This document shows positions 9,480 to 32,122 of a DNA stretch of 34,449 nucleotides, one piece after another. The stretch is from contig JABGRF010000234.1 in the NCBI GenBank assembly GCA_018648405.1, positions 1 through 34,449 of the forward strand, written 5' to 3'. The first letter of the stretch is position 1, and each line of letters opens with the position of its first letter. The translations under genes and the position numbers were made by a program. The DNA is from Candidatus Scalindua sp. (GTDB taxonomy: Bacteria > Planctomycetota > Brocadiia > Brocadiales > Scalinduaceae). Under the pieces are notes generated by a model that was not told the origin of the DNA, searched no databases, and was given only the letters and a program-made list of their open reading frames with translations.

Positions 9480-10103
9480 ATGTGGAAGAGGAAAAAGAAA
9501 CAAAAGGTGGCTGAAGCAGTGGAAGAAACGGTTGATGCCGTAACCGTAGAGGAGGACTCTTCGGAGGAAGAACAAGCGGTTAGCGTGGAAACCGAAAAAG
9601 CCTCCTCCGCAAAAGAAGAAGAAAAGGTTAGTACGACAGCCGAGAAAGTTCCGTCTACAGAAGAGGAAAAAACGGTTAGCGTTGCTACTGAAGAGGCTCC
9701 CTCTGAGAAAAAAGAAGAAAGAGTTGGAGGCGAAACAGGGAACGCCATTGCCGTAGAAGACGTTTCATCCTCCGGAGTTTTCATTTTTGGTAATAGGATT
9801 GAGAGCCGTTTTAAGAAGTTTATGACGGCCATATTTTCAATTTTTCTTCTACCGCCTGTTATCGTGTTCGGTCTGTCAGTGATAACGATTGTTGTGCTGA
9901 TTGCTTTTCCTTTGATTTCCATAATTCTGCCAATAACGTTGTTATCTTTATGTATTCTTTTTATACTACTTCCTGTTGTGTTACCTCTCCTTACAATTGT
10001 CGCCCTTATAACGGGAAAAGGAAAGGTTCAATTTGGGCTGGAGAATAAGAAATTTGCGATTAAGGTTCTTGGCATAACTATTCCTCCATATTCAGGTCGC
10101 TAG
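9480..10103 (+). CDS. membrane protein with a long acidic N-terminal region (207 aa)
   Basis: Residues 1-8 are basic. Residues about 9-95 are a low-complexity acidic stretch of Glu, Ser, Val and Thr with loosely repeated units (for example EEEKVSTTAEKVPSTEEEK). From about 113 to 175 lie two or three closely packed hydrophobic segments (FSIFLLPPVIVFGLSVITIV, ILPITLLSLCILFILLPVVL). A short tail follows with KFAIKVLGITIPPYSG. I recognise no family. The ATG has no good Shine-Dalgarno. It sits 65 bases before the first SPFH gene, on the same strand, and may belong to the same membrane assembly. Confidence 0.75.
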   Translation: MWKRKKKQKVAEAVEETVDAVTVEEDSSEEEQAVSVETEKASSAKEEEKVSTTAEKVPSTEEEKTVSVATEEAPSEKKEERVGGETGNAIAVEDVSSSGVFIFGNRIESRFKKFMTAIFSIFLLPPVIVFGLSVITIVVLIAFPLISIILPITLLSLCILFILLPVVLPLLTIVALITGKGKVQFGLENKKFAIKVLGITIPPYSGR

Positions 10104-10168
10104 TGTATATGTATGTAAAACAAACTAATATAATAAGTGTAAATTTTTTTAAATTATAGAGATTCTAA

Positions 10169-11413
10169 ATGGAAAAAAGCTTTAACCCAAAAGGTGTTAA
10201 GAAGAAGCCACTTGTTTCTAAGAAAATGGTGTTTTTTGTCATTGTACCCATCTCCTTGGTCGTCTTACTCATTGTAGGCGGTAGGCGGATGACGTGGAAG
10301 GAGATACAGGCCGATGAAGTTGCTGTGATTATTAATAATATCACCGGCAATATAAAAACCATAGACCGCGCTGGTGCTGTAGTTTACTATCCTTTCATTC
10401 AAGACTTGTACATCCTTGATAAAAGAGAGCAGGAAGCGCCTATGGCATCATCGAATATATCCGCAGATTTCCCACAGGGAAACCCCATCATACTCAAGAC
10501 ACGTGATGGAGGTGACGTAAGTATAGACTTGGTCATACAGTATAAATTAATCTCTAAGATTGCAAGTAAGGTTGTTCAGGATACCGGTTTCGGTGAAGAA
10601 TTTAAAGAGAAGTGGATATGGGACTATGCGAGAACTATTTGTAGATATGAGTTTGGGGATCTGTCCATTAGTGAATTTCCTGATTCGGTTAAAAGAGAGG
10701 AAAAGATCCGGGCGTCAACTAATGAGTTGAACAGTTTGTTAAACCCGCATGGAATATTCGTAACCTCTTTGAATTTCATTGATTATCGTTACTACAGAGA
10801 ATATGCGGAGAAGATACACGAAAGAAGGCTTGCAGATAAAGAGGTTGAAGAACAGGTGCAGAGGGCATCTGCTGCAAGGAAAAATCAGGATAGGGTAGTT
10901 ACCGAGGAAACAAAGAAACTGGATGTGGCAATATCCAGGTTTGGGGGAACACTACATCAAATGGAGAGAGCCGCAAAAGCTGAATCAGACAAAATCAGGG
11001 ATTCCGGCAAGGCGTATCTTATTAAGGCCATGCTTGATGCAGATGCGGAGTATGATAGACTGGAAAAACACGCTGCATCAATACTTGCAGTGAAGAAGGC
11101 AGAAGCGGAGGGTATCTTCGCTCTTAAAAAAGCTCTTGAGGGTGCAGGCGGCCGCAATCTTGTCAAGATGGAATATGCAAGACGGTTGCGTAATGCCAAG
11201 GTTATAGGAACTCCTGTTTTAAAGTCATCAGAGGAGATACCTCAATTAAGAATAAGAGAAAGACTGCTCAGCGAAACGGGTGAGAGCGAAGTGCCACAAC
11301 CGCCCGCTAAGGAGGAAGGGTCTTCTCATGGAGAAGGGGCAGTACATGGTAATCCGTCCGGGCATGGCGAAGCGTCAGGACATCCAGCGGCAGCAGGACA
11401 TTCGGGACATTAA
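10169..11413 (+). CDS. SPFH/band 7 protein with a His-Gly-rich tail (first of pair)
   Basis: The 414-residue product has one N-terminal membrane anchor (about 19-39, MVFFVIVPISLVVLLIVGG), then an SPFH/prohibitin-like domain (about 45-225, including GAVVYYPFIQDLYILDKR and DVSIDLVIQYKL). A long charged helical region (about 220-345) follows, typical of stomatin/HflK-type oligomerisation. The last 30 residues are Gly-Ser rich with six histidines (for example HGEASGHPAAAGHSGH). SPFH proteins form large rings or cages that organise membrane domains and proteases. The His-rich tail is not part of the usual family and may bind metal. The second SPFH gene starts 78 bases downstream. Confidence 0.9.
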   Translation: MEKSFNPKGVKKKPLVSKKMVFFVIVPISLVVLLIVGGRRMTWKEIQADEVAVIINNITGNIKTIDRAGAVVYYPFIQDLYILDKREQEAPMASSNISADFPQGNPIILKTRDGGDVSIDLVIQYKLISKIASKVVQDTGFGEEFKEKWIWDYARTICRYEFGDLSISEFPDSVKREEKIRASTNELNSLLNPHGIFVTSLNFIDYRYYREYAEKIHERRLADKEVEEQVQRASAARKNQDRVVTEETKKLDVAISRFGGTLHQMERAAKAESDKIRDSGKAYLIKAMLDADAEYDRLEKHAASILAVKKAEAEGIFALKKALEGAGGRNLVKMEYARRLRNAKVIGTPVLKSSEEIPQLRIRERLLSETGESEVPQPPAKEEGSSHGEGAVHGNPSGHGEASGHPAAAGHSGH

Positions 11414-11421
11414 CAGAGTAA

Positions 11422-11452
11422 CTGGTTCTGGGCGTTTTTTTGCCCTTTCCAG
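11422..11452. repeat. hairpin between the two SPFH genes
   Basis: CTGG (11422-11425) and GGGC (11430-11433) pair with GCCC (11442-11445) and CCAG (11449-11452) around a T-rich loop. There is no T run after the stem, so it is not a classical terminator. It may act as a processing or attenuation element setting the ratio of the two products. Confidence 0.4.
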
Positions 11453-11491
11453 GATTATATTAAAATAGAATAGTATCAGGAGAACGGATTA

Positions 11492-12892
11492 ATGGTAAAG
11501 TTTCTGGCCAAGTTTATTGCTAAATATTTCATACCTCTAAGTATTGTGATAGCTATCATTGTTATTGTTGTTGGTGTAAGGTTTATGATAATCAGGGTTG
11601 AGATTGATCAGATAGGAGTTAAAACTACAATATGGGGTCTTAGCAGGGGTGTTGTACAAAAGGACTATACGCCAGGCTGGCATAGATTTATAAGACAAAT
11701 TGAAACCTGGGATCTATTTGATGGTACTGTACAGACGCTTAGTCTGACACGGGAAGCACGTAATGCAGAGGGTAAGATTGAGTCAAAAGAGATACGCATT
11801 AGAACTGCAGATGACTATGATGTTACCGTTGACATTATTGTGAAATATCAAATAATGGATGGCAAAGCGAACAAGATTCGTCAGGAAATAGGTCCTGGTG
11901 ACAGATACAAGATGTTTGTAGAGAGTGAAGCAAAAGACGTTGCCAGAAGCGTTTTAGGAAAAATGACGGAAAAAAATCTTTATAACCCTGATGAGAAGCG
12001 TAGAAGGGCTGCAGAAGCTAAAATATTACTTTCAAGCCAGGTTAAATCACGGCACGTTCGTGTGATTGACTGGCTTATTCTTGACATGAGGTTTGACACG
12101 CAGCTAGAAAGAAAGATTAAAAATGTTAAGCTTGCAGAGCTAGATGAGTTACTGAATGTGGCAAAAGAAAGGGCCGTTGGCAAAAGGGGTATTACCCAGA
12201 CGATTGACGCTTCTACAGAGGCCCTTGCACAAAAAATACAATCAGATAAGGAGGGTAAAATAGTAGGCCTGAAAGCTGAAATGGATACTAAAGTTACGCG
12301 GATTATTGCCAGCGCGAATAAATTCATGATTGAACAGAAGGCGGAAGGGGACCATTATATGCATGTAAAACACGCTGCTGGAGAATTGCTCGTTGATAGG
12401 GCAACGGCAGAGGGTGAGAGGCTGCGAAGGGTTTCTATGACCGGTCTGGGAGGAGATTTAATCGTAGCGCTTGAAGCAGCCAGGAATATAAATCTGGCTG
12501 ATATAGTCGTCTCTACACAGGATATGGATCTCCTGGATGTAGACGAAATGATAATTAAATTAGGGGCGGGAGTAAAGAGAGACCTGCCTATCATATTAGA
12601 ACTTGAAGATTCTCCGGGATCTCTTAAGCTGTCAGATGACCTGCCTGAGGTACTGAAAGCTGGTCATGGCGAACACGGCGGTGGTCATGGCGGGGAACAT
12701 GAAGGGCACGGAGATTCTTTCATGGATCATGATACTGTGCCTCATCAAAAAGAAGATCACGGAGCCTCTTTAATGGAACATCATGGGCAAGAAACTACTT
12801 CTCACGGAGTGCCGAGTGAAACACATGGAACTGCTCATGAAGAATGGGGCTCATCTTCGTCCCTTACCGAAGAGTTTCCAATATCTCAATAA
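11492..12892 (+). CDS. SPFH/band 7 protein with a long His-rich tail (second of pair)
   Basis: The 466-residue product has an N-terminal membrane helix (about 15-35, IPLSIVIAIIVIVVGVRFMI) and an SPFH domain with TPGWHRFIRQIETWDLFDGT and DDYDVTVDIIVKYQI. An alpha-rich region (about 200-330) follows, and then a tail from about 390 with 13 histidines in roughly 60 residues (for example GHGEHGGGHGGEHEGHGD). It is a paralogue-like partner of the preceding gene, as in HflK/HflC or prohibitin pairs, but no FtsH gene is present. AGGAG lies upstream of the ATG. Its stop overlaps the stop of the convergent His-rich coiled-coil gene by 7 bases. Confidence 0.9.
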   Translation: MVKFLAKFIAKYFIPLSIVIAIIVIVVGVRFMIIRVEIDQIGVKTTIWGLSRGVVQKDYTPGWHRFIRQIETWDLFDGTVQTLSLTREARNAEGKIESKEIRIRTADDYDVTVDIIVKYQIMDGKANKIRQEIGPGDRYKMFVESEAKDVARSVLGKMTEKNLYNPDEKRRRAAEAKILLSSQVKSRHVRVIDWLILDMRFDTQLERKIKNVKLAELDELLNVAKERAVGKRGITQTIDASTEALAQKIQSDKEGKIVGLKAEMDTKVTRIIASANKFMIEQKAEGDHYMHVKHAAGELLVDRATAEGERLRRVSMTGLGGDLIVALEAARNINLADIVVSTQDMDLLDVDEMIIKLGAGVKRDLPIILELEDSPGSLKLSDDLPEVLKAGHGEHGGGHGGEHEGHGDSFMDHDTVPHQKEDHGASLMEHHGQETTSHGVPSETHGTAHEEWGSSSSLTEEFPISQ

Positions 12893-14406
12893 GAGCTTTT
12901 AAACGTTATTTCATACCTATCGATATCCACAGGCTGTACCCCCGAAATGATTTCTTCAAATACCTTAGTGTCTCCGCTATTAATACTTCTTACTGAGAAA
13001 TCCAGACTTGTGATCATGCCGTACGTCTTACTAAATACTTTCATGACAAAAGAAGCATTGTAAAAGTTATTTTGTGAATTGTTCTTTATGCTTCCTGTCA
13101 CGGAAGAGGAAGATCCAAAACCGTTAAAAGAAACATTATTGGCATAAAACCCATTGCCGATTTCTTCAAATCCTTCCAACTCCTCTGGAGGAGTAGTTTC
13201 ATCAAATATTAAGTCTTCCAGATTGTCTGGCGTTGTCTTCTCTTTTGTTTCAGCCTTAGCAACCGCAACTGCTTTTTCTATTTCGATAATCTTGACTATG
13301 CTCTCTCCTGTATCGGAAACTAATGGCATTCTGGCAGGATAAATCGAATACTTACTAATATCTTTGGAGATGACACCAACAATTATTTCTTCAAAAGATT
13401 TGGTCTTACCTTTGCTAAATCCATAAATAGAAAAACCCTGGTCTCCCAAATGGATATTTTCTTTATTATAAGCCAGAGCTTTAAAGTCAATCATGCCATG
13501 GTCTCTGTCAGATTTATTCACTATTACACCGCTTATCTGGGAAGACGAACCGAAAGGTTCAAATTTGATATTTTTAACAAAAAAGCCTTCTCCTATGTCT
13601 ATGAGGTCTGTTTTTTCAACATGTGCTTGTGGCTCTTCATGGTGTTCGGTTGGGGCTGCAGCATGCATCACATCGTCATGGTGTTCGGCTGTGGCCGCGG
13701 CATGCTTCGCTTCTTCATGGTGTTCGGCTGGGGCTGCAGCATGTTTCTCATCTTCGTGTTTAGCATGTTCCGTTACCGCTTGCACCAAAACGCCTGACTC
13801 AAGTTTGCTTAATCTGGAATTGAGTTCTTCAATTCCGCTTACAAGAGATTCATCCGGGGATGTCTGCTTTTGGAGGCTCTCCTTCATGGACAGGATGAGC
13901 TCTTCCTGTTTTACCAGTTTGTCTCCCAGTTTGTTGATGACACTCTTCTGCTCGTCTATAGCCTTCATCAATGTGTCTAATGGTTTGTTTGCCGTTTTAT
14001 ACATCCTTTCAAGTACCGCAGTCTTAACTTCCTGATCTTCGATCCTGTTTGCCAGCTTGGAAAATCGTTTCTTGAAGACATTCAGTGTTCCCTCAAATGA
14101 CTTTACGATCTCTTTTACTCCTTCCAGTGAACTCATGTTTTCAACTCTTTCAACTTTAGCGTCCATGTCGCTTAATAGATTTTCTATATTAGCCAAGCCC
14201 TGGTTAAGTTCTTCAGCCTGCTTTTCGCTAGATGCTTTACCGCTTTCCAGATTCGATATTCTGTTGTTCAGCTCTTCGATTTGTGTTACCCAGTCACCTA
14301 ACGATTGTTGGAATTTATCTAAATCCTTTAATATGTCTGAGAATCCAACAGTGCTGGAAAAAAAGAGTGTTAAGGTGAAAGTACATATGATAAGCAGTTT
14401 CTTCAT
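12886..14406 (-). CDS. secreted coiled-coil protein with His-rich repeats and two related C-terminal domains
   Basis: I chose ATG 14406, with GGAG 8 bases upstream, giving 506 residues that begin with a signal peptide (KKLLIICTFTLTLFFSSTVG). Residues about 24-205 have heptad-like coiled-coil character. Residues 213-262 are His-rich and include three tandem 13-residue units (221-259, for example KHAAAPAEHHEEA). Two similar domains of about 85 residues follow, beginning EGFFVKNIKFEPFGSSSQ (273) and NGFYANNVSFNGFGSSSS (418), each ending FEEII-GV; they resemble FxLYD-type beta domains. The shared His-rich character with the convergent SPFH genes suggests one assembly. I do not recognise the full architecture. 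Confidence 0.85.
   Translation of the reverse strand: MKKLLIICTFTLTLFFSSTVGFSDILKDLDKFQQSLGDWVTQIEELNNRISNLESGKASSEKQAEELNQGLANIENLLSDMDAKVERVENMSSLEGVKEIVKSFEGTLNVFKKRFSKLANRIEDQEVKTAVLERMYKTANKPLDTLMKAIDEQKSVINKLGDKLVKQEELILSMKESLQKQTSPDESLVSGIEELNSRLSKLESGVLVQAVTEHAKHEDEKHAAAPAEHHEEAKHAAATAEHHDDVMHAAAPTEHHEEPQAHVEKTDLIDIGEGFFVKNIKFEPFGSSSQISGVIVNKSDRDHGMIDFKALAYNKENIHLGDQGFSIYGFSKGKTKSFEEIIVGVISKDISKYSIYPARMPLVSDTGESIVKIIEIEKAVAVAKAETKEKTTPDNLEDLIFDETTPPEELEGFEEIGNGFYANNVSFNGFGSSSSVTGSIKNNSQNNFYNASFVMKVFSKTYGMITSLDFSVRSINSGDTKVFEEIISGVQPVDIDRYEITFKSSY
13630..13746 (-). repeat. three tandem 39-base units encoding 13-residue His-rich repeats
   Basis: The units translate to K/M-H-A-A-A-x-x-E-H-H-x-x-x and lie inside the coiled-coil gene, between its helical region and the C-terminal domains. 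The DNA copies are similar but not identical, so this is an older duplication. The copy number could vary between strains. Confidence 0.75.
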
Positions 14407-31663: not shown

Positions 31664-32122
31664 TCAATTTTCTTTATATACTACATCATCATACTCTGTT
31701 TCGATTTTTGCTTTATGTTCCAGCTCTTCTGCCGCCAGTTCCTCAAAGAGAGTCCTGACATCTCCGCTGGTTACAACCTTTAGCATCCTGGCATAAAACT
31801 CATAAGCCTTTTGTTCCCTTTTCATTGCATGTACCATTATGTCTTGAGAAGTTGAATTCGGAGCGATCTCTTTATCCATCAAATAATCACTTACATGAAG
31901 GTCGTGTGTTTCCGGAACGGTATGATGTTCGTGTGCAACATCGCTTAAATCAAAACTTTCCAGTTTCACCTTATGCTTTAACTCAACACCCGCAAGTTCA
32001 TTGAGTAATGTTTTTGCGGCTGGGTCTTTTGCTACACCCGCGGCTGTAGAATAAAATTCATTTGCATCAGTTTCATACTGAATTGCCATATCCATAATTT
32101 CTTTTAGCTGCTTGTGTGCCAC
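31664..32122 (-). CDS. ferritin-like (rubrerythrin-type) di-iron protein, first copy
   Basis: The 152-residue helical product carries two half-repeats with glutamate and ExxH motifs (YETDANEFY and ELKHK; EQKAYEFY and EELEHK), the carboxylate set of a di-iron rubrerythrin-like centre. It lacks the C-terminal rubredoxin domain of full rubrerythrin, so a separate small Cys4 protein would be the electron donor. A His-rich linker HEHHTVPETHDLH (about 64-76) joins the halves. The GTG start has AAGGAGG upstream. A likely role is peroxide reduction or iron handling. Confidence 0.88.
   Translation of the reverse strand: MAHKQLKEIMDMAIQYETDANEFYSTAAGVAKDPAAKTLLNELAGVELKHKVKLESFDLSDVAHEHHTVPETHDLHVSDYLMDKEIAPNSTSQDIMVHAMKREQKAYEFYARMLKVVTSGDVRTLFEELAAEELEHKAKIETEYDDVVYKEN

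Follow-up and report, generated by a model that had tools for sequence, protein, structure and literature searches.

Why do three neighbouring genes for membrane and exported proteins share histidine-rich (His-rich) segments, and do these genes form one system? The question was raised by the window, a stretch of 34,449 nucleotides from Candidatus Scalindua sp. (GenBank assembly GCA_018648405.1) that makes up the whole of contig JABGRF010000234.1 (C114) in a 2.57 Mb genome, 78% complete. The genes concerned encode a membrane protein (MP), two SPFH proteins (SPFH-A and SPFH-B) and a secreted coiled-coil protein with FxLYD domains (CC), and the original prediction had taken the His-rich segments as the sign of a common assembly at one membrane. 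The stronger finding is a different one: the locus is a membrane module of the anammox (anaerobic ammonium oxidation) order, containing two order-restricted families and tied through MP to a dynamin-like GTPase. Its core of SPFH-A, SPFH-B and CC is older than the His segments.

Gene neighbourhoods were read from 59 other genomes and one control, yielding 54 anammox-order loci from five families. SPFH-A and SPFH-B were adjacent and co-directional in 54/54 loci, and CC was convergent downstream in 50/54 (one missing case was a contig end), so that the predicted association of the three genes was borne out. CC lay directly beside SPFH-B in the Scalinduaceae and was separated from it by inserted genes in the Brocadiaceae. 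Unrelated neighbours could have been held together simply by slow change of gene order in this order, and trpE, with no obvious link to the module, also stays upstream of it in three families. We regard this as quite improbable: the other flanking genes were wholly different between families whereas SPFH-A, SPFH-B and CC were constant, and the three proteins share a predicted membrane side and a correlated trait (below).

CC was present in 60/61 genomes of the order and in 0/13 other genomes of the class, and SPFH-B in 58/61 and 1/13, respectively. Distant SPFH pairs occur in other Planctomycetes. From its distribution, the SPFH pair is a planctomycete pair and CC its anammox-specific partner, because the search of 231 other genomes of the phylum returned no full-length CC but distant relatives of SPFH-A in 37 (E 1e-28 to 1e-100). 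The five known families of the order are all proposed to be anammox bacteria (PMC10467342); anammox bacteria turn ammonium into nitrogen gas. HZS_alpha, the hydrazine synthase alpha domain (PF18582), was found in 39/61 order genomes, from four of the five families, and the gaps are probably due to fragmented metagenome-assembled genomes (MAGs). PF18582 was only partly useful as an anammox marker, as it misses fragmented MAGs and has many copies in two non-anammox genomes of the class: G063 and G069, outside the order, had 11 and 16 matches, mostly in frames of 770-1730 aa, and these may represent the remote relatives of HZS that PMC12758564 discusses. One contig filed as 'Parcubacteria group bacterium NP996' (L008, PBQF01000022.1) carried the Scalindua order trpE-MP-SPFH-A-SPFH-B at 80-97% identity and is most likely misbinned.

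The four open reading frames (ORFs) were intact in the window, and the features are as follows (signal peptide and topology were assigned by eye):

9480..10103, forward strand: MP, 207 aa; basic at its N-terminus, followed by some 90 acidic residues, roughly 65 residues of hydrophobic block and a short tail
10169..11413, forward strand: SPFH-A, 414 aa; a membrane helix at the N-terminus precedes the Band_7 domain (residues 45-235) and a coiled coil
11255..11410, forward strand: His/Gly/Ser tail of SPFH-A (residues 363-414, 6 His)
11492..12892, forward strand: SPFH-B, 466 aa; membrane helix at the N-terminus, then the Band_7 domain (35-227) and, in the model, a long helix (240-331)
12662..12832, forward strand: His-rich tail of SPFH-B; 13 His at a density of about 10 per 40 residues, with disorder predicted
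12863..12889, forward strand: C-terminal motif LTEEFPISQ of SPFH-B, retained across Scalinduaceae whether or not the tail has His
12886..14406, reverse strand: CC, 506 aa; an N-terminus resembling a signal peptide is followed by a coiled coil, the His linker and two FxLYD domains
13753..14343, reverse strand: coiled coil of CC, about 195 residues
13606..13767, reverse strand: His-rich linker of CC; repeat resembling HHEEAKHAAAPAE, 12 His, predicted disordered
13336..13602, reverse strand: FxLYD beta-sandwich domain 1 of CC
12892..13167, reverse strand: FxLYD beta-sandwich domain 2 of CC, absent from the Brocadiaceae-type CC

The 3' ends of the convergent CC and SPFH-B genes overlap by 7 bp. 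Promoter and terminator scans gave no more signal than shuffled sequence. SPFH-A and SPFH-B have Lys-rich N-termini ahead of a single membrane helix, which suggests that their bodies and tails face the exported side, shared with CC.

Both SPFH proteins matched Pfam Band_7 (SPFH-A 60.3 bits, SPFH-B 52.1 bits; cut-off 23.6), and the named relatives of SPFH-A were Candidatus Scalindua. The structure model of SPFH-B, of low confidence (mean predicted local distance difference test, pLDDT, 49.5), had an SPFH fold followed by a long helix; Foldseek matched it to HflC, erlin, stomatin and prohibitin, with E. coli HflC at the top (E 1e-7). In profile searches against solved structures, for which E-values were weak, SPFH-B was nearest to HflC and SPFH-A to prohibitin 1 (partial match, positions 98-244, E 4.5e-4). 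The best structural and profile match of SPFH-B thus belongs to the HflK/HflC cage that modulates FtsH in E. coli (PDB 7wi3, 7vhp, 9cz2), also a tandem SPFH pair, with an N-terminal membrane helix, a body on the exported side and a long C-terminal helix. The window pair differs from it by extra tails of 50-105 residues, here His-rich, and by the convergent CC partner. The prohibitin 1/2 assembly (PDB 8rrh) likewise contains two paralogous SPFH proteins; we know of no CC-like partner or His tails in the prohibitin complex. Both HflK/HflC and prohibitin 1/2 co-assemble. The SPFH fold is also common to the stomatin, paraslipin and QmcA-NfeD proteins, but unlike QmcA-NfeD the window pair has no adjoining NfeD, and it differs from another tandem stomatin-like pair of the same genome (contig C100).

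Given that SPFH-B is closest to HflC of the FtsH complexes in both structure and profile, the pair might be a second HflKC-like modulator of FtsH or of another membrane protease, with CC as substrate or adaptor and the His tails incidental. This is unlikely, since the true HflK and HflC of the same genome are encoded separately on contig C78 (265.8 and 263.5 bits) and the window proteins fall below those models: SPFH-A had no match to TIGR01933/TIGR01932 (HflK/HflC models), and SPFH-B reached 13.9 bits with another HflC model (cut-off 427). Neither ftsH nor any other protease gene turned up in the neighbourhoods read. Identification of the window pair as HflK/HflC themselves was rejected, the true pair of the genome lying elsewhere. 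Two variants of SPFH-B were recorded: in L065 and L066 (family f4) the protein ends in MEYIP, as opposed to the FPVSQ ending in Scalinduaceae, and in L049 (1686-2915, genome G003) it is shortened within the tail, where the tblastn alignment runs across a TGA codon.

CC matched the FxLYD family of NCBIfam (NF038353) over two stretches (37.4 bits, cut-off 23), and its structure model contained two beta-sandwich domains and a disordered His linker. The domain is shared with other FxLYD proteins, from which CC differs in that its domains are fused to a coiled coil that is secreted and bears a His linker; the full-length family was found only in anammox genomes. Relationships to EzrA, SMC or PUMA_CC were rejected as coiled-coil background (all below the curated cut-offs), and coiled-coil matches in the PDB and fold matches to transglutaminase and RbmA were dismissed as generic. 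Three genomes of the His-rich clade described below (L053 1449-2870, L054 1510-2943 and L056 15497-16939) carry a further CC paralogue upstream of trpE; it shows 28-33% identity, has two FxLYD domains and lacks the His linker.

MP had no Pfam or NCBIfam match. A homologue was found once each in 59/61 genomes of the order and in 0/231 other genomes of the phylum. Whether MP belongs to the neighbourhood, as had been predicted, depends on the family: it lies directly upstream of SPFH-A in 16/16 Scalinduaceae, and elsewhere it accompanies a dynamin-family GTPase, following the GTPase and IspF genes at 19/19 readable loci. The GTPase matched Dynamin_N (PF00350, E ~1e-27), as do bacterial dynamin-like proteins, and carries a hydrophobic stretch close to the C-terminus. 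In Scalinduaceae MP has left the dynamin cluster and joined the SPFH cluster, because the order GTPase-IspF-SerRS was kept without MP at 8/8 Scalinduaceae loci read, while MP adjoins SPFH-A there. This relocation suggests a functional tie between the two clusters. Matches to the GTPase were obtained in 59/61 order genomes (two partial only); none of the 13 other genomes of the class had a full-length relative, and divergent relatives (26-34%) occur in other Planctomycetes. Unlike the dynamin-MP loci elsewhere, the window has no dynamin gene; in its genome the GTPase lies on contig C382. At L153 (8052-8708, reverse strand; genome G025, family f2) the MP homologue ends in a His-containing repeat of its own, EEHLYEEHLHEEHLH.

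The His-rich tails reported on the adjacent SPFH proteins were recounted at 6 His in 52 residues (SPFH-A) and 13 in 106 (SPFH-B), and the separate His-rich block of CC proved to be the linker, with 12 in 62 residues; MP of the window has zero His. Against a background of 123 ORFs (a 146 kb sample of the genome), SPFH-B and CC peaked at 10 His per 40 residues, followed by SPFH-A and a rubrerythrin at 6. The rubrerythrin (PF02915; window 31664-32122, reverse strand) has a His-dense N-terminal stretch and was the only other sampled ORF at this density. When the neighbourhoods of 16 Scalinduaceae loci were compared gene by gene, SPFH-A, SPFH-B and CC between them accounted for all ten of the densest His stretches.

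Whether His tails occur in all members had been posed as a check with the original prediction, and they do not: among the loci examined, an SPFH-A tail with at least three His was limited to the window and 8/54 other anammox-order loci. His tails as a general SPFH feature were rejected for the same reason. In a tree of TrpE and the SPFH cores (tails left out), the His-rich state marked a single clade, of 8 genomes and with full support. Its sister genus (g4) had a milder form, seven other Scalinduaceae had none in all three proteins, and the other anammox families had no His tails. Since most homologues lack them, the His segments are a decoration of one branch, and the purpose of the conserved module must be another.

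Within Scalinduaceae the His content of the three proteins varied together, with independent contrasts of His percentage correlated at r 0.85 (SPFH-A/SPFH-B), 0.83 (SPFH-A/CC) and 0.75 (SPFH-B/CC), and at r 0.66-0.87 after removal of the largest contrast. Retention was compared between pairs of genomes, with small counts, hand-picked segment limits and pairs picked after the alignment had been viewed. Between the window and its nearest relative (L058), 29/30 His were retained as against 101/176 other tail residues (p 8e-6), and between the window and L050, 24/30 as against 84/188 (p 3e-4). In the sister genomes L052 and L054 the relation was reversed: His matched at 6/19 positions and other residues at 138/211 (p 0.0055). 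In each of the three proteins Arg, Gln, Asn, Pro or Asp stands in place of His, so that His was selectively lost from all three between these genomes. The SPFH-A tail of L052/L054 resembles that of the His-poor L055, not that of their own clade, which suggests either tail exchange or retention of an old tail.

Neutral drift of low-complexity sequence in disordered linkers could also produce such segments, the co-variation then reflecting genome-wide compositional drift or chance in a small tree. The tails do vary in length and sequence, the independent events are few, and retention of His between L050 and L053 was not significant (p 0.057). Drift alone is nevertheless a poor account, because the acidic head of MP, another low-complexity stretch of the same genomes, has 0-1 His across all 17 genomes. 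In addition, two pairs retained His better than the remaining residues of the tails, and in another pair it was lost faster than the His of the cores. A genome-wide His-rich composition was supported neither by the 146 kb sample, the remainder of which is not His-rich, nor by the His-free head of MP. Drift was accordingly judged improbable.

A membrane store or buffer for metal (Zn, Ni, Cu or Co) supplying metalloenzymes was also considered. Disordered stretches rich in His, Gly, Asp and Glu are typical of nickel and zinc chaperones (HypB, SlyD, UreE), and all three segments would face the same side. Such a store is a distinctly unlikely reading of the module, whose core exists without His; the neighbourhoods read showed no identifiable gene for a metal transporter, regulator or chaperone beside it, and neither a CXXC nor another classical metal site was recognised.

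From the gene content, synteny, taxonomic restriction, and co-variation and retention of His, we infer the following assembly, compartment, CC binding, His chemistry and link to the anammoxosome. SPFH-A and SPFH-B would most likely co-assemble into a large hetero-oligomeric ring or cage, by analogy with HflK/HflC and prohibitin 1/2, with the N-terminal helices as anchor and with bodies and tails in a periplasm-like space or the anammoxosome lumen. CC would be exported to that side and probably bind the SPFH assembly via its coiled coil or FxLYD domains, and MP may connect this complex with membrane shaping. The disordered tails of both SPFH proteins and the linker of CC gained His together in one marine branch of Scalindua; these segments most likely form a shared multivalent contact, with divalent metal or protonation near pH 6-7 as its trigger. 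We give about even chances to this reading, in which an HflKC/prohibitin-like membrane scaffold with a secreted partner works across the order and, in one lineage, acquires through the His segments a contact that responds to metal or protons. Several points weigh against it: the mean pLDDT values of the structure models (58 and 50) denote low confidence, MP is part of the SPFH operon in one family only, conserved gene order within one order could partly reflect shared ancestry, and the His state, missing from most homologues, rests on few independent events (one clade and one genus). The common assembly originally proposed thus gains from the correlated His content and the joint loss in L052/L054, and is not supported as a general feature of the homologues, most of which lack the tail.

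The exported side may correspond to the anammoxosome lumen, because the signal sequences of anammoxosome enzymes also work as export signals in E. coli and an origin of the organelle from the cytoplasmic membrane is assumed; signal sequences do not distinguish the lumen from the periplasm (PMC12758564). A pH gradient exists across the anammoxosome membrane (PMC12445922). A more specific and rather doubtful proposal is that SPFH-A/SPFH-B, CC, MP and the dynamin-like GTPase contribute to shaping, holding or dividing this membrane, the His of Scalindua tuning the system to lumenal pH or metal. The lumen was reportedly placed near pH 6.3 by van der Star in 2010. With a His pKa near 6-6.5, the His-rich tails and linker could associate via metal or charge state.

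The anammoxosome has been described as the sole energy-producing bacterial organelle, its origin being stated as unknown (PMC12758564). In the open-access literature searched, neither a paper naming anammoxosome-shaping proteins nor an earlier description of the module was found. CC and MP follow the anammox order across its five families, are absent from the 231 other planctomycete genomes and are physically tied to the SPFH pair, MP also to the dynamin-like GTPase. Since SPFH and dynamin proteins elsewhere organise and remodel membranes, the module gives a short list of proteins to localise and is a testable candidate for organising the membranes of anammox cells. The co-varying His provide a natural experiment, in which His-bearing species can be set against those lacking the segments, and the complex could be captured by way of its tails.

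Finally, a near-identical pair of 127-aa ORFs was observed at L047 (14948-15331 and 15837-16220), amid genes of an apparent multi-subunit cation antiporter operon.

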